From Arhodomonas aquaeolei DSM 8974 (GTDB lineage Bacteria; Pseudomonadota; Gammaproteobacteria; Nitrococcales; Nitrococcaceae): a stretch of 64,000 bases of DNA. The stretch lies in the NCBI RefSeq assembly GCF_000374645.1, contig NZ_KB894811.1, positions 1 through 64,000 on the forward strand. Direction: 5' to 3'. Of this stretch, positions 1 through 45,171 are shown in pieces (positions within the stretch are counted from its first letter, which is position 1; each line of letters opens with the position of its first letter). The position numbers and the translations under genes are program-made. Below the pieces are notes generated by a model. That model had not been told where the DNA came from and did no database searches. It saw only the letters and a program-made list of their open reading frames with translations.

Positions 1-286
1 GGGCGGCCTCGGCGACGAGGGCGTGGAGGGGGCGCTCGCTGGCGTCGGCCTGGCGGATGGCGAGCCGGGCGGGGGCGCCGATGAGGTGCTTGAGCTCGAG
101 ATCGCCGCGCTGGCAGAGGCAGTCGAGGCGGTAGCGGAAGGGGGCGCTCACCGCCTCCTCGCCGACCAGGCGGTGGGGGAGCAGCCCGGCCGGTGCGCCG
201 AGCTCCAGGCGCAGCAGCCGCTGGTGCTGCGTGAGCTCGACGTCGAAATGATCGAGCAGCCGGTCCGCAGAGGTGTCGTCGGGCAT
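1..286 (-). CDS. vgrG: Type VI secretion tip protein VgrG, N-terminal fragment (cut by window edge)
   Basis: The leftward frame starts at ATG 286 (MPDDTSADRLL) and stays open to base 1, so 95 residues are visible and the C-terminus lies outside the window. The pattern of a short beta segment, then LLPHRLVGEEAVSAPFRYRL, then a GDLELKHLIGAPARL stretch and a charged RPLHALVAEA strand, is that of the N-terminal gp27-like domain of VgrG (TssI). In the family this protein trimerises into the spike on the Hcp tube and carries effectors. A purine-rich GGGACGG lies about 6 bases before the start. No other type VI gene is visible, so whether it sits in a full cluster or is an orphan vgrG cannot be told from here. 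Confidence 0.75.
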   Translation of the reverse strand, partial: MPDDTSADRLLDHFDVELTQHQRLLRLELGAPAGLLPHRLVGEEAVSAPFRYRLDCLCQRGDLELKHLIGAPARLAIRQADASERPLHALVAEAA

Positions 287-459
287 GTGTCACCGTCCCT
301 GGTCGATCGCCGGATCGCGCCGGTGCGGCGCGTCATCGCCTTCCGCCCTCCTGGCGGTCGGCATGGGCCCGGGGGCAGGCCCCGGCCCGGATATCAAAAG
401 CCTACCGCAACGCGGCGCGGATGCCGAGTCCCGCGCCGCGCTGTTTCCCGGTGGCCCTG

Positions 460-1494
460 CTAGGGGCAGGGGTTGGCGTTGTCCCGGTGGATCGCCTCTA
501 TGCCCTCGATCACCGTCTCCGGCAGCGCCAGCGTCTCGCTGTCCATGTTGCTGTGGAGCTGCTCCATGGTGGTGGCGCCGATGATGTTGCTGGTGAGGAA
601 CGGCCGCGAGTTGACGTAGGCGAGGGCCATCTGCGCCGGGTCCAGTCCGTGCTCCCGTGCCAGCGCGACGTAGCGTGCCGTTACCGTCTCGCCGGGCTCG
701 CCCAGGTAGCGCTTGAACTGGGTGTAGCGGGTCAGGCGGGCGCCCTCCGGGCGTGCGCCGTTCAGGTACTTGCCGGTGAGCGCGCCGAAGGCTAGGGGGG
801 AGTAGGCCAGCAGCCCGGTGTACTCGCGGTGCGCGATCTCCGCCAGTCCCACTTCGAAGCTGCGGTTGACCAGACTGTACGGGTTCTGCACCGAGACCAC
901 CCGGGGCAGGCCGTGACGCTCGGCGAGCTGGAGGAAACGCATCACGCCCCAGGGGGTCTCGTTGGAGAGGCCGATATAGCGGATCTTGCCCTCGTCGACG
1001 AGGTCCGCGAGGGCGCGCAGGGTCTCCTCGATCCCCGGCTCCACGTCCTCCTCGGGATAGGTGTAGCCCAGGCGGCCGAAGTAGTTGCTCGGACGCTTGG
1101 GCCAGTGGAGCTGGTAGAGGTCGACGTAGTCCGTCTGCAGGCGCCGGAGGCTGCCCTCCAGGGCCTGGCGCAGTCCCTGGGCGTCGTAGCTCGGCCTGCC
1201 GTCGCGGATGTGCTTCACCCCCGGGCCGACGCACTTGGTCGCCAGGAACACCGAGTCGCGGGGCGCGCCGGCGGCGAAGTAACTGCCGATGTAGCGCTCC
1301 GTGGTGCCCCAGGTGTCCGCGTGGCTCGGCACGGGGTACATTTCGGCGGTGTCGAAGAAGTTGATCCCGCGCTCGCGGGCGGCATCCATCTGGGCGTGGG
1401 CCTCGGCCTCGGTGTTCTGGTGGCCCCAGGTCATGGTGCCCAGGCAGAGCCGGCTGACCCGTACGTCGGTATCCCCGAGTTGGCGGTATTCCAT
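460..1494 (-). CDS. tas: NADP(H)-dependent aldo-keto reductase, Tas-like
   Basis: 344 residues, close to the 346 of E. coli Tas, and recognisable along its whole length. The aldo-keto reductase tetrad is intact: Asp48 and Tyr53 in FFDTAEMYPVP, Lys87 in LATKCVG and His130 in LYQLHWP. The C-terminal NADP-binding stretch ends with GATTMEQLHSNMDS. The protein should be a cytosolic (beta/alpha)8 oxidoreductase; its physiological substrate is not known. The start is ATG 1494, preceded by GAGAGGGAC; an in-frame ATG at 1560 lies inside a repeat element and lacks a good ribosome site. It is a single gene, 173 bases from vgrG, with the repeat beginning 43 bases upstream of its start. Confidence 0.88.
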   Translation of the reverse strand: MEYRQLGDTDVRVSRLCLGTMTWGHQNTEAEAHAQMDAARERGINFFDTAEMYPVPSHADTWGTTERYIGSYFAAGAPRDSVFLATKCVGPGVKHIRDGRPSYDAQGLRQALEGSLRRLQTDYVDLYQLHWPKRPSNYFGRLGYTYPEEDVEPGIEETLRALADLVDEGKIRYIGLSNETPWGVMRFLQLAERHGLPRVVSVQNPYSLVNRSFEVGLAEIAHREYTGLLAYSPLAFGALTGKYLNGARPEGARLTRYTQFKRYLGEPGETVTARYVALAREHGLDPAQMALAYVNSRPFLTSNIIGATTMEQLHSNMDSETLALPETVIEGIEAIHRDNANPCP

Positions 1495-39060: not shown

Positions 39061-41145
39061 ATGGCCGTGACAGGCCCGCTGGAGCGGCCGGTCACCGACC
39101 TGCCGCGGGTGGGGCCCCGGCTGGCCGAGCGCCTCGCCCGGCTGGGGCTGCACCGCGTTGGTGACCTGCTCTTCCATCTCCCGCTGCGCTACGAGGACCG
39201 CACCCGGGTGGTGCCCCTGGGCGAGCTGCGTCCGGGGCGTACCGGCCTGATCGAGGCCCGGGTAGCCCATGCCGCCGTGGTGCCCGGCCGTCGCCGGCGC
39301 CTGGTCTGCCGGGTGGAGGACGGCACCGGTGCCGCCGAGCTGGTCTTCTTCCACTTCCACGCGGCGCAGCAGCGGCGGCTGCAGCCGGGCACCCGCCTGC
39401 GCGCCTTCGGCGAGGGCCGTCCCGGGGCGGGCATGCTCCAGATGGTTCACCCGGAATGGGAGGTGATCACCGGCGACGCCCCGGCGCCGGTGGATGACGG
39501 TCTCACCCCCGTCTACCCGACCACGGAGGGCGTCACCCAACCGACGCTGCGCCGGATCGTGGCCCACGCCCTGGATACCGGGGCGCCGGCGCTGCTCGAG
39601 CTGCTGCCCGACCGGCTGCGAGAGGCGCTGTCGCTGCCGCCCCTCGTCGAGGCCCTGGCCATTATCCACCGGCCACCGCCGGACACCCCGGTGGAGGCCC
39701 TGCTCGACGGCCGTCATCCGGCCGTGCGCCGGCTCGCCTTCGAGGAGCTGCTGGCCCATCGCCTCAGTCTTCTGCGCCTGCGTGAGGCCCATCGCCGGAG
39801 CCTGCCGGCGCCGCGGCTCGCCGGCGACGGTGGGCTGCGCGAGGCCCTGCGGCAGGCCCTGCCGTTCGCGCTCACGGAGGCCCAGGAACGGGTCCTGGCC
39901 GAGGTCCTGGCGGATCTCGCCGAGCCGCAGGCCATGCTGCGGCTGGTCCAGGGCGATGTCGGCTCGGGCAAGACGGTGGTCGCCGCGCTCGCCGCACTCG
40001 CCGGGGTCGAGGCGGGCTGCCAGGCGGCGGTGATGGCGCCCACGGAGCTGCTCGCCGAGCAGCACTTCCGTGCCTTCCGTGACTGGCTGGCACCGCTCGG
40101 CGTGAGCGTGGACTACGTCTCCGGACGGCTGTCCGGGCGCGCCCGGCGGGACGCCCTGGCCGCGCTCGCTGATGGCACCACGCGGGTCGCCGTGGGCACC
40201 CACGCGCTGTTTCAGTCGGAGGTCGCGTTCCATGCCCTGGGACTGGTGATCATCGACGAGCAGCACCGCTTCGGCGTGCATCAGCGCTTGGCGCTGCGAA
40301 ACAAGGGCGCGGACGGCGCCAGCCAGCCCCACCAGCTGATCATGACCGCCACGCCGATCCCGCGGACGCTGGCGATGACCGCCTATGCCGACCTGGACGT
40401 CTCGGTGATCGACGAGCTCCCGCCCGGGCGCCAGCCGGTGGCCACCGTGGCGGTGCCGGACACCCGCCGCGACGATGTCGTCCAGCGGGTGCGTGCCGCC
40501 TGCGCCGAGGGCCGGCAGGCGTACTGGGTCTGCACCCTGGTGGAGGAGTCCGAGGTGCTGGAGGCGGAGGCGGCCGAGGAGCGTGCGCGGCTGCTCGGCG
40601 AGGCCCTGCCGGACCTGCGCGTGGGGCTGGTCCACGGCCGGCTTACGGGCAGCGAGAAGGAGGCGGTGATGACCGCCTTCGAACACGGCGGGCTGGATCT
40701 GCTGGTGGCCACCACGGTGATCGAGGTGGGCGTGGACGTGCCCAACGCCTCGCTGATGATCATCGAGAACCCGGAGCGCCTGGGCCTGGCCCAGCTCCAT
40801 CAGCTCCGCGGCCGGGTCGGCCGGGGCAGTGCCGCGAGCAGCTGCGTGCTTCTCTATCACGGCCCGCTCTCGGAGACCGCGAAGGCCCGGCTCGGGGTGC
40901 TGCGCGAGAGCGGCGACGGCTTCCGGATTGCCGCCCGGGACCTGGAGATACGTGGCCCGGGGGAGCTGCTCGGCACCCGCCAGACCGGCGCGATGGAGTA
41001 CCGCATCGCAGACCTCGGGCGTGACGCGGACCTGCTGGACGACGTCCGCACAGCGGCGTCGCGGCTGTTCGCCGGGGACGCCGCTACCGTGCAGGCGCTG
41101 ATTGAGCGCTGGGTGGGCGAGGGCGAGCGCTACGCCCAGGCGTGA
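39061..41145 (+). CDS. recG: ATP-dependent DNA helicase RecG
   Basis: 694 residues. RecG remodels stalled forks and branched DNA. The N-terminal wedge/OB domain starts with LPRVGPRLAERLARLGL; the helicase motifs include GDVGSGKTVVAAL (motif I), IIDEQHRFGVHQR (motif II), TATPIPRTLAM (motif III), and the C-terminal TTVIEVGVDVPNA and QLRGRVGRG. It ends ten bases before the convergent nrdG stop, with no terminator. Confidence 0.96.
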   Translation: MAVTGPLERPVTDLPRVGPRLAERLARLGLHRVGDLLFHLPLRYEDRTRVVPLGELRPGRTGLIEARVAHAAVVPGRRRRLVCRVEDGTGAAELVFFHFHAAQQRRLQPGTRLRAFGEGRPGAGMLQMVHPEWEVITGDAPAPVDDGLTPVYPTTEGVTQPTLRRIVAHALDTGAPALLELLPDRLREALSLPPLVEALAIIHRPPPDTPVEALLDGRHPAVRRLAFEELLAHRLSLLRLREAHRRSLPAPRLAGDGGLREALRQALPFALTEAQERVLAEVLADLAEPQAMLRLVQGDVGSGKTVVAALAALAGVEAGCQAAVMAPTELLAEQHFRAFRDWLAPLGVSVDYVSGRLSGRARRDALAALADGTTRVAVGTHALFQSEVAFHALGLVIIDEQHRFGVHQRLALRNKGADGASQPHQLIMTATPIPRTLAMTAYADLDVSVIDELPPGRQPVATVAVPDTRRDDVVQRVRAACAEGRQAYWVCTLVEESEVLEAEAAEERARLLGEALPDLRVGLVHGRLTGSEKEAVMTAFEHGGLDLLVATTVIEVGVDVPNASLMIIENPERLGLAQLHQLRGRVGRGSAASSCVLLYHGPLSETAKARLGVLRESGDGFRIAARDLEIRGPGELLGTRQTGAMEYRIADLGRDADLLDDVRTAASRLFAGDAATVQALIERWVGEGERYAQA

Positions 41146-41154
41146 GCGATCCGT

Positions 41155-41907
41155 TCAGGCGTCACGGATCTGAAAGGAGTCGAACAGCCGTTCTATAGGG
41201 TGTGCCCGGGTCGTCTCCAGCAGCCCGGTCACTCCGGGCGCGCCGTAGGCGGGATCGGTGGCGCCGGTCGCGCGGCAGGCCTGTAGCGTATAGTGCCGCA
41301 CGCCGAGCCTGGCCAGCTCCCTGGCCAGGTGCAGTAGCCCATCCGGGCTGATCACAAGGGGGTGAACCGTGGTGCGGACTTCGTAGGTGACGCCGCTGCC
41401 GAGCAGATAGTCCAGGCTCTGCCGGGCTCGCTCGCCGCTGCCGGGCACGCCGGTGACCCGCTCGTAATCGCTGAACCGGGTCTTGACGTCGAATCCCACC
41501 CAGTCCACCTGCGGCAGCAGCCGGCGCAACCGCTGCGGATAGGCGCCGCCGGTGTGCAGACCCGTCTCGAAGCCCAGGGATCGGACCTCGGCGAGGGCGT
41601 GCGCAAGCCCCCGTTGGAGGGTCGGTTCGCCGCCGGAGAAGACCACGCCGTCCAGTAGCCCCCGGCGCTGGCGCAGGAACTCGCGCACCGACGGCCAGCC
41701 GATCGTCTCCGGACCCGTGGCCGGGATCAGGTGGGGGTTGTGGCAGTAGCCGCACGCCCAGGGGCAGCCCTGGCAGAACACCACGGCGGCGAGCCGTCCG
41801 GGCAGGTCCACCGCGGTCATGGGGACGAGGCCGGCCACCTGGAGGGCGGCCGGCGGTTTCCGGTCAGTCAAGATGCGTGCGCTCCTCGCGGAAGTGTCGC
41901 CGCTCAC
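41155..41907 (-). CDS. nrdG: Anaerobic ribonucleoside-triphosphate reductase activating protein
   Basis: Up to 250 residues. NrdG is the radical SAM activase that makes the glycyl radical on NrdD. The cluster motif is CPWACGYC in FCQGCPWACGYCHNPH, followed by VVFSGGEPTLQ. The start is uncertain: GTG 41907 overlaps the small glycyl-radical gene by 44 bases, while TTG 41871, which overlaps that stop by eight bases and has GAGGAG upstream, would give a more usual N-terminus (TDRKPPAALQVAGL). Either way its translation is coupled to that gene. Confidence 0.9.
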   Translation of the reverse strand: MSGDTSARSARILTDRKPPAALQVAGLVPMTAVDLPGRLAAVVFCQGCPWACGYCHNPHLIPATGPETIGWPSVREFLRQRRGLLDGVVFSGGEPTLQRGLAHALAEVRSLGFETGLHTGGAYPQRLRRLLPQVDWVGFDVKTRFSDYERVTGVPGSGERARQSLDYLLGSGVTYEVRTTVHPLVISPDGLLHLARELARLGVRHYTLQACRATGATDPAYGAPGVTGLLETTRAHPIERLFDSFQIRDA

Positions 41908-42046
41908 GGTGCTCGCCCCGCTTGCCGACGTTGAACGACGAAACCGGACGGTGGTAGCCCATGACGCGGGTCCATACCTCGCAGGGCTGACGCTCCTCGT
42001 CGCGGAGCGCCTCGTGGCTGTCGTGCTCGGGTCGTACTGTCGTCAT
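41864..42046 (-). CDS. Glycyl-radical C-terminal segment of class III ribonucleotide reductase, encoded separately
   Basis: 60 residues. RQPCEVWTRVMGYHRPVSSF and the following NVGKRGEHRERRHF correspond to the extreme C-terminus of NrdD, where the glycine of the RVxGY motif carries the radical. The main nrdD frame stops 14 bases upstream, in another frame, before this segment. The gene has a strong site of its own (TAAGGAGGGCATACGCC before ATG 42046; the TAA is the nrdD stop). It is followed by nrdG, which overlaps it. So the radical site should be carried by a separate small polypeptide. Confidence 0.82.
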   Translation of the reverse strand: MTTVRPEHDSHEALRDEERQPCEVWTRVMGYHRPVSSFNVGKRGEHRERRHFREERTHLD

Positions 42047-42060
42047 GGCGTATGCCCTCC

Positions 42061-44136
42061 TTACGTATTGCTGATGGTGTCGTGGTCCTGCCTGCCCGTC
42101 TCTCGCCGTCGGCGCGCGAGGATCTCCTCGTCGCACCGGGGGCAGTAGGGGTGCTCGCCGGCGAGGTAGCCGTGCCTGGGGCAGATGGAGAAGGTCGGCG
42201 TGATCGTTATGTAGGGCAGGTGGAAGCGCTCCAGCGAACGCCGGACCAGTTTGCGGCAGGCCGCCGTGCTGGAGATCCGTTCGTTCATGTACAGGTGCAG
42301 TACGGTGCCCCCGGTGTAGCGACGCTGCAGCGCCTCCTGGTGTGCCAGCGCCTCGAACGGGTCGTCAGTATGGCCCACTGGCAGCTGCGAGGAGTTGGTG
42401 TAGTAGGGCGTCTCCTCGGTGCCGGCCTGGAGGATGCCGGGGAAGCGCCTGCGGTCCTCCCGGGCGAAGCGGTAGGTGGTGCCTTCCGCGGGCGTCGCTT
42501 CCAGGTTGTACATGTGTCCGGTCTCTTCCTGGAATCCGGCGATGACGTCGCGCACGTGATCGAGGAACTCGGCCGCGAACCGTTGACCCCAGGGCGTGGT
42601 GATGTCGCGGGCGTCGTCGGTGAAGTTGCGGATCATCTCGTTGATCCCGTTCACGCCGAGGGTCGAGAAGTGGTTGCGCAGCGTGCCAAGGTAGCGCCGG
42701 GTATAGGGGAACAGCCCGGCGTCCATGTGCCGCTGGATGACCCTGCGCTTGATCTCCAGGCTGCGGCAGGCCAGCGCGAGCAGGGTATCGAGCTGTTCGT
42801 ACAACACCGCGGCGTCGCCGCGGTAGAGGTGGCCGAGGCGGGCACAGTTGATGGTGACCACCCCGAGCGATCCGGTCTGTTCCGCGCTGCCGAACAGGCC
42901 GTTGCCCCGCTTGAGCAGCTCGTTGAGATCGAGCTGGAGCCGGCAGCACATAGAGCGGACCATGTGCGGCTCGAGGTCGGAGTTGATGAAGTTCTGGAAA
43001 TACGGCAGGCCGTACTTCGCGGTCATCGCGAACAGTCGTTCCGCGTTCTCCGATTCCCAGGGAAAGTCGTCGGTGATGTTGTAGGTGGGGATGGGGAAGG
43101 TGAACACCCGTCCGCGGGCGTCGCCAGCGGTCATGACCTCCATGTACGCCCGGTTGATCATGTCCATCTCGTCCTGGAGCTCGCCGTAGGTGAAGGGCAT
43201 GGGCTCGCCGCCGATCACCGGTGTGTCCTCGCACAGGTCTGCCGGACAGATCCAGTCGAAGGTGAGATTGGTAAAGGGCGTCTGTGTGCCCCAGCGCGAG
43301 GGGACGTTGAGGTTGTAGACGAGCTCCTGTATCGCCTGCCGGACCTCGGGGTAGGTGAGGCTGTCCTTGCGCACGAACGGGGCCATGTAGGTGTCGAACG
43401 ACGAGAACGCCTGGGCGCCGGCCCACTCGTTCTGCAGCGTACCCAGGAAGTTCACGATCTGGCCCACGGCGGAGCCTAGGTGCCGTGGCGGGCCGGCCTC
43501 GACCTTGCCGGGGATCCCGTTCAGGCCCTCATTGAGCAGGTTGCGCAGCGACCAGCCGGCGCAGTAGCCGGCAAGCATGTCCAGGTCGTGGATGTGGATA
43601 TCGCCGCGGCGGTGAGCCTCACCGATCTCCGCGGGGTAGACATGGCTGAGCCAGTAGTTGGCTACGACCTTGCCGGAGACGTTCAGGATCAGTCCGCCGA
43701 GGGAGTAGCCCTGGTTCGCGTTGGCGTTGATCCGCCAGTCTTCGCGTCCGAGGTATTCGTTGATGGTCCGCTCGACATCGACGAGCGTGTGCCGGTCCCG
43801 CCGCAGCCGGGCGTGCTGTTCGCGGTAGGCGATATAGGCGCGTGCGGTGGTGAAGTGTCCGGTCCCGGCGAGTTCGCGTTCGACGGCGTCCTGGATGGTC
43901 TCGACGCCGATTTCGGCATCCCCGTCCCCTGTCTCCGCGAGCCGGGCGATCACTTCTCGAGTGAGGGTCGCCGCGGCCTCGTTGCCGAATTCGCCGGTTG
44001 CTGCACCGGCCTGGCGTATCGCCGTGTGAATCTTGTCGGGGTCGAACGGCGCGTGGTTGCCGTCGCGCTTGACGACGCGGGCCGCCGGGGACGCATCGCC
44101 GGAGTCCTTCCGGCCACAGCGCGGGTGTTGGGGCAT
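42061..44136 (-). CDS. nrdD: Anaerobic ribonucleoside-triphosphate reductase, catalytic chain without glycyl-radical segment
   Basis: 691 residues. The N-terminal ATP-cone (VVKRDGNHAPFDPDKI onward) is followed by the class III barrel, with GYCAGWSLRNLL, YNLNVPSRWGTQTPF and GVVTINCARLG. It ends with a zinc-like CPRH/CPRC pair and a charged tail DHDTISNT, without an RVxGY glycyl-radical motif, which instead lies in the next gene. ATG 44136 has GGAGA at about seven bases; an upstream ATG at 44181 is in the regulatory array. It makes dNTPs without oxygen. Confidence 0.92.
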   Translation of the reverse strand: MPQHPRCGRKDSGDASPAARVVKRDGNHAPFDPDKIHTAIRQAGAATGEFGNEAAATLTREVIARLAETGDGDAEIGVETIQDAVERELAGTGHFTTARAYIAYREQHARLRRDRHTLVDVERTINEYLGREDWRINANANQGYSLGGLILNVSGKVVANYWLSHVYPAEIGEAHRRGDIHIHDLDMLAGYCAGWSLRNLLNEGLNGIPGKVEAGPPRHLGSAVGQIVNFLGTLQNEWAGAQAFSSFDTYMAPFVRKDSLTYPEVRQAIQELVYNLNVPSRWGTQTPFTNLTFDWICPADLCEDTPVIGGEPMPFTYGELQDEMDMINRAYMEVMTAGDARGRVFTFPIPTYNITDDFPWESENAERLFAMTAKYGLPYFQNFINSDLEPHMVRSMCCRLQLDLNELLKRGNGLFGSAEQTGSLGVVTINCARLGHLYRGDAAVLYEQLDTLLALACRSLEIKRRVIQRHMDAGLFPYTRRYLGTLRNHFSTLGVNGINEMIRNFTDDARDITTPWGQRFAAEFLDHVRDVIAGFQEETGHMYNLEATPAEGTTYRFAREDRRRFPGILQAGTEETPYYTNSSQLPVGHTDDPFEALAHQEALQRRYTGGTVLHLYMNERISSTAACRKLVRRSLERFHLPYITITPTFSICPRHGYLAGEHPYCPRCDEEILARRRRETGRQDHDTISNT

Positions 44137-44179
44137 GAGTGATCTCCGCCGTGTCGGACGATGGGTCGAGCATGGCGGC

Positions 44180-44195
44180 AATCAATATGTGGCAC
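44180..44195. promoter_or_regulatory. Candidate NrdR box 2 overlapping the nrdD -10 region
   Basis: AATCAATATGTGGCAC keeps the core C-A-ATAT-n-T-n-G of the NrdR consensus, with degenerate flanks. Its ATAT core is 32 bases from that of box 1, close to three helical turns, as in known paired NrdR sites. A leftward promoter CTGACA (44210-44205), 17 bases, TATTGA (44187-44182) lies between and across the boxes. Confidence 0.5.
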
Positions 44196-44196
44196 A

Positions 44197-44210
44197 TTGA
44201 CTTGTGTCAG
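44197..44210. promoter_or_regulatory. FNR/ANR-like site upstream of nrdD
   Basis: TTGACTTGTGTCAG fits TTGAY-N4-RTCAA with one mismatch at the last base. It lies between the two candidate NrdR boxes and overlaps the predicted -35, so its position is not that of a classic class II activator site. An oxygen-responsive regulator would suit an anaerobic reductase. Confidence 0.45.
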
Positions 44211-44211
44211 A

Positions 44212-44227
44212 GCACTATATGTAGTTA
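44212..44227. promoter_or_regulatory. Candidate NrdR box 1 upstream of nrdD
   Basis: GCACTATATGTAGTTA is a near-perfect match to the core of the NrdR box, acaCwATATaTwGtgt. NrdR represses ribonucleotide reductase genes according to the dATP/ATP balance. It lies about 80 bases upstream of the nrdD start, just before the candidate -35. Confidence 0.65.
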
Positions 44228-44283
44228 CTCGTGGCCGGCGTGGTGCGGGGGTCTCACGCGCAGCGTCTCCGCGGAGACCGTGC

Positions 44284-45171
44284 TCAGCGGTACATGTAGT
44301 GCAGCACGATCCCCACGAAGATCACGCCGCCGTACCAGTTGTTGTTCAGAAAGGCCTGGAAGCAGGGGCCGCGCTCGCGCTCGCGGATCAGCCACTGCTG
44401 GCGGACGAACAGCAGCGCACCGAGGGCCACCGACGCGTAGTAGATCGCCGATAGCTGTGCGGCGATGCCGATACCGACGAGCGTGACCGTCATCAGCACC
44501 TGCAGCAGGCCGATGATCATGCGGTCCTGGTTGCCGAACAGGATCGCCGTGGAGCGCACGCCGATGCGCAGGTCGTCATCCCGGTCGACCATGGCGTACT
44601 CGGTGTCGTAGACCGTGGCCCAGATCACCGCGGAGAGGAACACCAGCCACGCCAGCGGCGGCAGCGCGCCGGCCTCGGCGGCGAAGGCCATGGGCACTGC
44701 CCAGCCGAACGCCGCCCCCAGGTGGACCTGGGGCAGGTGGGTGTAGCGCTTGGCGAACGGGTAGGTCGCCGCGAGGGCCGCGCCGGCGAAGGCCAGCGCG
44801 ATGGTGAGGCCGTTCATGGTCAGCACCAGCGCGAAGGCGACGGCGCAGAGCACGGCAAAGACCCCCAGGGCCTCGCGCTCGCCCACCCGGCCGGTCGCCA
44901 GCGGCCGTTCCTGCGTCCGTTTGACGTGACCGTCAAAGTCGCGGTCGGCGAAGTCGTTGATCACGCAGCCCGCCGCGCGCATCACCAGCACCCCCGCGAT
45001 GAACACGGCGAGCACGAGGGGGCGCGGCGGGCCGCCGGCGGCTAGCCACAGCGCCCAGAGCATCGGCCAGAGCAGCAGGAAGTTGCCGATCGGCCGGTCG
45101 AACCGGGCCATCCGCGCGTAATCGTGGAGCCGGGCCAGCCATCCCGGCGGGGCGGGCGTGTTCGCGCTCAT
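44284..45171 (-). CDS. ubiA: 4-hydroxybenzoate polyprenyltransferase
   Basis: 295 residues, about eight membrane helices. UbiA attaches the polyprenyl tail to 4-hydroxybenzoate in ubiquinone synthesis. The two Asp-rich motifs are NDFADRDFD (first) and [13 protein letters not shown] (second). ATG 45171 overlaps the ubiC stop by four bases, so chorismate lyase and prenyltransferase are coupled. It ends 104 bases before the nrdD upstream array begins and shares no promoter with it. Confidence 0.95.

Follow-up and report, generated by a model that had tools for sequence, protein, structure and literature searches.

Class III ribonucleotide reductase (RNR), which is oxygen-sensitive and supplies precursors for DNA, is described as one catalytic chain, NrdD, and an activase, NrdG. 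In a 64,000-nucleotide stretch of Arhodomonas aquaeolei DSM 8974 (contig NZ_KB894811.1, positions 1 to 64,000; referred to here as the window), the nrdD reading frame closes before the radical loop, and the glycyl-radical motif is found in a separate 60-residue open reading frame. The question raised by this locus is whether a single gene has been broken here or whether the two genes and nrdG specify an enzyme of three chains. From the sequences, we consider it very probable that the locus encodes a three-component class III RNR, and a working three-chain enzyme is very likely; we infer that the split chains form a complex, are activated by NrdG and carry out catalysis.

The large chain ends in ...CPRHGYLAGEHPYCPRCDEEILARRRRETGRQDHDTISNT-stop, i.e., past the C-terminal knuckle and before the radical loop. 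An earlier, sequence-only reading of the window described an nrdD that stops after a zinc-like Cys/His pair and lacks RVxGY; the missing motif stands, whereas the "pair" consists of four candidate ligands (C-x2-H and C-x2-C), all of which reside in the large chain. As also noted in that reading, a 60-residue gene with its own GGAGG and the glycine motif follows in another frame: the junction sequence is TAA-GGAGGGCATACGCC-ATG, so that the ATG of the small gene lies 14 bases past the nrdD stop, and GGAGG probably serves this gene as ribosome-binding site. The small protein reads MTTV...RQPCEVWTRVMGYHRPV... with the glycyl-radical motif CEVWTRVMGYHRPV. Together, nrdD, the 60-residue frame and nrdG form an operon-like row on the minus strand, and NRDD domains are found at these two places in the host genome and no others.

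The two chains are homologous to two parts of a fused NrdD. The Pfam NRDD model (PF13597) matches the large chain at 1.4e-172 over model positions 2-540 (575.7 bits vs a curated cut-off of 26.2) and the 60-residue protein at 4.9e-8 over positions 531-562, which is also over the curated cut-off. In the NCBI subfamily model NF006126 the large chain covers positions 3-658 (1116.6 bits vs a cut-off of 548) and the small chain positions 649-683 of 684, the latter far under the whole-protein cut-off, as expected of a fragment. Jointly, the chains span the whole of the NRDD model and almost the entire NF006126 model. PF13597 and PF03477 are the only Pfam families found on the large chain, which shows no match to the class I/II-type catalytic domain PF02867; on the small protein, at E <=0.1, NRDD 531-562 is the only match, and no homology to the C-terminus of pyruvate formate-lyase (PFL), i.e., to the YfiD/GrcA family, is seen. 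The finger-loop motif of NrdD, MCCR or MGCR (PMC9669993), is present as M396 C397 C398 R399, invariant in 13 aligned large chains. The activase, encoded by a gene adjoining nrdD, is recognized by TIGR02495 (199.2 bits vs 131.15) and PF04055. The C-terminal glycyl-radical motif is absent from NrdD's own polypeptide and sits on the 60-residue chain, and it is the large and small pair, not the large chain alone, that would be the class III enzyme. Because the RVMGY glycine occurs only in the small chain, the three chains proposed in the sequence-only reading, i.e., NrdD, the radical peptide and NrdG, remain the favored composition.

In the proposed mechanism, the large NrdD holds the ATP-cone, the putative zinc knuckle and a barrel that includes the finger-loop cysteines, while the ~60-residue subunit would supply the glycine, on which NrdG would generate a glycyl radical. 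Like the C-terminal loop of ordinary NrdD, the small chain's radical loop would insert into the NrdD barrel, and the radical would pass from this loop to the finger-loop cysteine.

Table 1. Features of the class III RNR locus in the window
Feature	Coordinates	Strand	Description
nrdD, large (catalytic) chain	42061..44136	(-)	691 residues; ATP-cone, NRDD barrel with MCCR finger loop, C-x2-H / C-x2-C knuckle
nrdD/small-gene junction	42047..42060	(-)	14 bases, GGAGG directly 3' of the nrdD stop
separate glycyl-radical subunit	41864..42046	(-)	60 residues; presumed radical glycine is Gly30 in TRVMGY
nrdG, radical S-adenosylmethionine activase	41155..41907	(-)	TIGR02495 (NrdG2); overlaps the 3' end of the small gene

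The start of nrdD is the ATG at 44136, with a longer alternative at TTG 44181. The nrdG gene was called with a GTG start; TTG 41871, located behind GAGGAG and overlapping the small-gene stop, may be the likelier start. No FNR-type site was found at <=2 mismatches in 44137-44290, nor any promoter-like site in 41000-44400.

The knuckle itself offers a second candidate radical site. The large chain could bear its own radical, e.g., at the HGYL glycine (G656), and the small protein would then be a mere spare part or regulator. This glycine is conserved in 13 aligned large chains and corresponds to Gly650 of Cupriavidus necator H16 NrdD, reportedly named as the radical site there (see below). However, each of the 11 fused NrdDs compared holds HGY in addition to an RVxGY-type motif, and T. 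maritima NrdD has HAF in place of HGY and RIVGY in its radical loop. The TRVMGY glycine of a fused relative (L010) aligns with this RIVGY glycine, counted as residue 621 (4coi). Furthermore, the split large chains have no RVxGY-like motif past the knuckle; such a pattern is found in 8 of 103, well before the knuckle. A radical on the large chain is very improbable. The four knuckle residues are presumed to bind zinc. A zinc ligand shared between the chains, i.e., the conserved Cys before the radical motif, was considered and rejected because the large chain holds four candidate ligands and three viral copies lack that Cys.

The bacterial split of nrdD is certain, and it is found well beyond this organism. 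Among the 59 nearest genomes, including that of the window, NRDD is present in four, split in three (the window's, G023 and G030) and fused in one (G038). A class-wide draw yielded NRDD in 37 of 369 genomes, where the match table assigned 27 as split, seven as fused and three as undecided fragments, i.e., 27 of the 34 decidable genomes are split; most of these cases were confirmed as sequence, while G186, G341 and G364 rest on the match table. In a phylum-wide draw, which includes some of the same genomes, NRDD occurs in 57 of 398, with 12 split by the table, seven of which were read as sequence; most remaining matches exceed 600 bits across the whole model, and two far relatives (L011 and L012) fall in other NCBI subfamilies. 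One full-model match in a 0.9-Mb genome (G612:C4:123722-125521) contains two in-frame TAA codons and may represent a same-frame split or something else. A scan of named-genome contigs with 12 small proteins (alignment A1) gave at least 576 confirmed stretches. The best 80 of these, ordered by similarity to the small protein of the window, comprise 74 split loci, three fused (L059, L080 and L106) and three without a large chain within 1500 bases, and nrdG is present on the same strand in 78 of the 80. Organisms with the split include Thauera, Herbaspirillum, Undibacterium, Acidovorax, Hydrogenophaga, Devosia, Halomonas and Microbulbifer, as well as metagenome-assembled genomes (MAGs) with Verrucomicrobiota or Elusimicrobiota labels, in which binning errors may be present.

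When pooled, the loci number 117 (with some species represented twice), 103 of which are split, 11 fused and three without a large chain. The full knuckle is found in 100 of the 103 split loci; the imperfect ones have a decayed large gene (L049), masked bases (L062) or a broken frame (L076). In the 100 intact loci, the small gene starts between -38 and +298 bases from the large-gene stop (median 35) and all three frame relations occur (21/40/39). A 41-residue core around the motif is under selection, with a median ratio of nonsynonymous to synonymous substitutions (dN/dS) of 0.14 over 368 related, non-independent pairs. These data bear on two trivial explanations. A single gene disrupted by an error in sequencing or assembly, which the sequence-only reading had named as a possible undoing of its proposal, would account for a bare frame change and nothing more; the same split in many independent assemblies, including a megaplasmid of Cupriavidus necator H16, the separate start with GGAGG and the varying spacing and frames leave it a negligible probability. 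Ribosomal frameshifting or stop read-through, yielding an ordinary joined NrdD, would suit the many closely spaced loci and the 4-base stop-start overlap in nine of the 103. It was rejected on the frame and spacing counts and is very improbable, as neither event fits three frame relations, spacers of up to 298 bases or small genes placed elsewhere: in G712 the small gene is ~9 kb and nrdG ~8 kb from the large gene, and in two viral loci the small gene lies ~2 kb from the large one (L338) or after nrdG (L364).

The earlier reading had also considered a normal fused nrdD with identical flanks in close relatives. A fused gene does exist in G038, but recG and ubiA, which flank the locus in the window, were not found in the 1.5-kb flanks of G038, G023 and G030, so the flanks are not shared there. 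Short proteins with the motif, which that reading mentioned as existing in databases, are indeed present, already under the name nrdD. That reading, which took the arrangement as perhaps known but little described, understated its extent: the split is widespread, and small genes also occur alone on viral contigs.

A naturally fused relative, L059, was used for structure prediction with a 48-row alignment (A2) of three fused, 22 large and 23 small chains. The model has the class III RNR fold at middling confidence (predicted local distance difference test, pLDDT, 73.3; predicted template modelling score, pTM, 0.79), and its best Foldseek matches are 4u3e, 8p2s and 4coi (T. maritima and P. copri NrdD). 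VIA-align places residues 43..604 of the model on 26..587 of T4 NrdD with Z 26.9; counted from these range ends only, Gly597 of L059 would fall near T4 position 580. In P. copri NrdD the radical domain is described as mobile except in the ATP-bound dimer, where one of the two monomers shows it ordered (PMC11226230), and this behaviour makes a separable domain plausible. L059 itself is from a Simkaniaceae chromosome (CP073763, Chlamydiota) and represents a fused class III RNR without an ATP-cone that groups weakly with a proteobacterial split sequence.

Three observations weigh against the three-chain reading. The AlphaFold model of the window's large chain alone has a mean pLDDT of 65.9, which is too poor for use. 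The distribution of NRDD near the window is patchy, with one of 23 genomes of family f1. In addition, the host carries two more RNR catalytic chains, of class I/II type, elsewhere in the genome, so the class III enzyme need not be essential there.

The fused NF006126 members L010, L008 and L150 have a very short link between the knuckle and the radical loop. The links of L003, L059 and L080 are longer and like split-type ends, and because of this resemblance L059, L080 and perhaps L003 look like re-fusions. In a 36-row tree, fused rows are scattered with seven changes, and the split rows fall on one side in 0 of 200 bootstrap trees; support is weak and the bootstrap had not settled. As few changes were needed in 81 of 500 label shuffles, so the split and fused labels are hardly clustered on this tree. 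An earlier 57-row quick tree gave seven changes, and counts this low arose in two of 500 shuffles. Repeated splits and a single split with re-fusions are not distinguished by the 36-row tree.

The split architecture is also found in C. necator H16, where megaplasmid pHG1 carries large chain, small chain and activase in this order. The large chain has 676 residues (computed mass 76,191 Da), and the 66-residue small chain (H16_RS32675, WP_011154154.1) is named nrdD by NCBI. Gly650 of the large chain falls within the CPTHGYL stretch of the knuckle. Siedow et al. in 1999 reportedly gave NrdD a mass of 76.2 kDa and placed the radical on Gly-650; if so, the radical site would have been assigned to the wrong chain. 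NrdDG has been reported as essential for complete denitrification in this strain (PMC2864759), and for C. metallidurans CH34 the genes are listed as Rmet_5137 and Rmet_5139, with the intervening number left out.

With the radical on a small chain of its own, damage by oxygen at the glycine should consume no more than a short piece that the cell can replace. In several bacteria, additional or orphan small genes occur apart from any intact nrdD. These include four MAG or draft assemblies: in G318 an additional small gene (L152) stands on a different contig with no system neighbours, two small genes are present in a Sutterella sp. (G798), with L079 as an orphan, G799 has a split pair and a second small gene adjoining a decayed large gene (L049), and in G800 only a small gene was found, adjoining nrdG (L075). 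The A. vinosum plasmid pALVIN01 holds one small gene (L038) and no other NRDD in a search across the whole plasmid (plasmid only).

Solitary copies are also found in viral contigs. A scan of IMG/VR with A1 gave 169 confirmed stretches; in the 80 retained, 33 of which have full 4-kb flanks on both sides, tblastn detected neither large chain nor NrdG, and the motif lies within a longer open frame in two (L176 and L232). Each of 35 whole viral contigs (27-108 kb) has exactly one match to PF13597, at model positions 521-562 and over the cut-off in 34, and NrdG2 was found in 0 of these 35; none is listed as 90% complete, so a gene missing from the contig is not necessarily missing from the virus. 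Scanning again, with 13 viral proteins (A3), confirmed 348 stretches, the best 80 of which (78 new locus identifiers, largely on the same contigs) again show the small gene alone. The combined 158 loci (L172-L251, L258-L335) yielded 151 parsed cores with 77 distinct sequences in 83 distinct contexts (68 from the first and 15 from the second scan, near-copies counted apart). Large chains are rarer in viral contigs: 30 loci were obtained with A4 (20 fused, six split, three large only and one cut) and four with the window's large chain as sole query, although the ratio to small genes is rough because the scans differ in sensitivity. Two viral nrdD genes, the split L360 and L365, appear to be interrupted by intein-like sequence, in L360 at MC|C of the finger loop.

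On 12 chosen viral contigs, one to three neighbours each were scanned against PHROGs. Terminase, portal, virion, tape-measure, baseplate or endolysin genes occur on six (L172, L199, L203, L204, L226 and L238), an integrase and no virion gene among the scanned neighbours on four (L207, L216, L219 and L231), and neither on two, L241 (dUTPase) and L248 (phosphoesterase). In L207 and L219 the radical gene lies near a reverse transcriptase (PHROG 1423) as well as the integrase. All five small proteins tested, i.e., that of the window and four viral ones, match PHROG 4132, annotated as "unknown function". Among the isolated phages of INPHARED, the window's small protein has no match at E 0.01; a viral small protein gives two records at E <=1, ANMV-1 virus and MT835493, the latter with a complete fused NrdD. 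In ANMV-1 virus (KP703175; L253 2686-3120), a 144-residue frame combines the radical motif with CxxC pairs of its own, and the whole record has no other NRDD match. This frame was published as an oxygen-sensitive ribonucleotide reductase, and a diversity-generating retroelement was also reported (PMC4372165).

Phages need deoxynucleoside triphosphates (dNTPs). The orphan bacterial and stand-alone viral copies are consistent with a replaceable radical carrier acting in trans. We regard the chances as evenly balanced that the small subunit serves class III RNR as an exchangeable cofactor protein, which bacteria would keep as an inexpensive part renewed after oxygen damage, and that many uncultivated phages carry this part alone, driving or refreshing anaerobic dNTP synthesis in the host. 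The phage genes could instead poison or divert the host enzyme by binding NrdG or NrdD without forming a productive radical, as might be suggested by copies that stand alone, without NrdD or NrdG, and by L227, L249 and L251, which lack the Cys preceding the motif. Against this, all 76 aligned distinct viral cores retain the motif (the parser required GY) and the median dN/dS is 0.12 over 102 pairs; both would also fit a decoy, which we consider unlikely. If the small subunit is such an exchangeable cofactor, the phages would hold in it an auxiliary gene for the host dNTP supply under anoxia, PHROG 4132 would gain a testable function, and the subunit would be to RNR what the YfiD/Y06I spare parts are to PFL.

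Known systems resemble this arrangement in part. The class III NrdD/NrdG enzymes (PF13597; NF006126/PRK08270; TIGR02495) share the domains, MCCR finger loop, knuckle, radical-loop sequence and adjacent nrdG, but here the radical loop is a separate gene product, even though the same NCBIfam family also has fused members. The split class II NrdJa/NrdJb of Pseudomonas aeruginosa is likewise an RNR in two chains of one operon, both of which are required; however, it uses a B12 radical and its small chain handles disulfide exchange rather than the radical (PMC4520616). There, Crona (2015) called split NrdJ the sole split RNR outside viruses. YfiD/GrcA and T4 Y06I are small stand-alone glycyl-radical proteins, also phage-encoded, that serve a larger partner, yet that partner, PFL, has its own glycine until damaged, whereas the split NrdD large chain has none (PMC8683613). 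According to Andorfer (2021), YfiD and Y06I are the only validated spare parts and others may exist, with further glycyl radical enzymes as possible partners (PMC8683613). In phages, nrdD genes may be split by introns or inteins, or broken for no evident reason (Dwivedi 2013, PMC3653736); in those cases the whole gene is interrupted, in contrast to the fixed domain boundary and the viral contigs with the radical piece alone described here. The literature searched, in which coverage of subscription journals was thin, yielded no account of a bacterial class III RNR that is split. If the common proteobacterial form, including that of C. necator H16, has three chains, then assays and annotations that omit the 60-residue gene describe an incomplete enzyme. 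A natural system with the glycyl radical on a separate, perhaps exchangeable, peptide would also offer an entry to studies of radical-loop insertion, activation and repair after exposure to oxygen.

Finally, TTGATNNNNATCAA-like palindromes were noted in the window; at <=2 mismatches none is located directly upstream of nrdD, and 14 are found across the whole window vs 3.8 expected.

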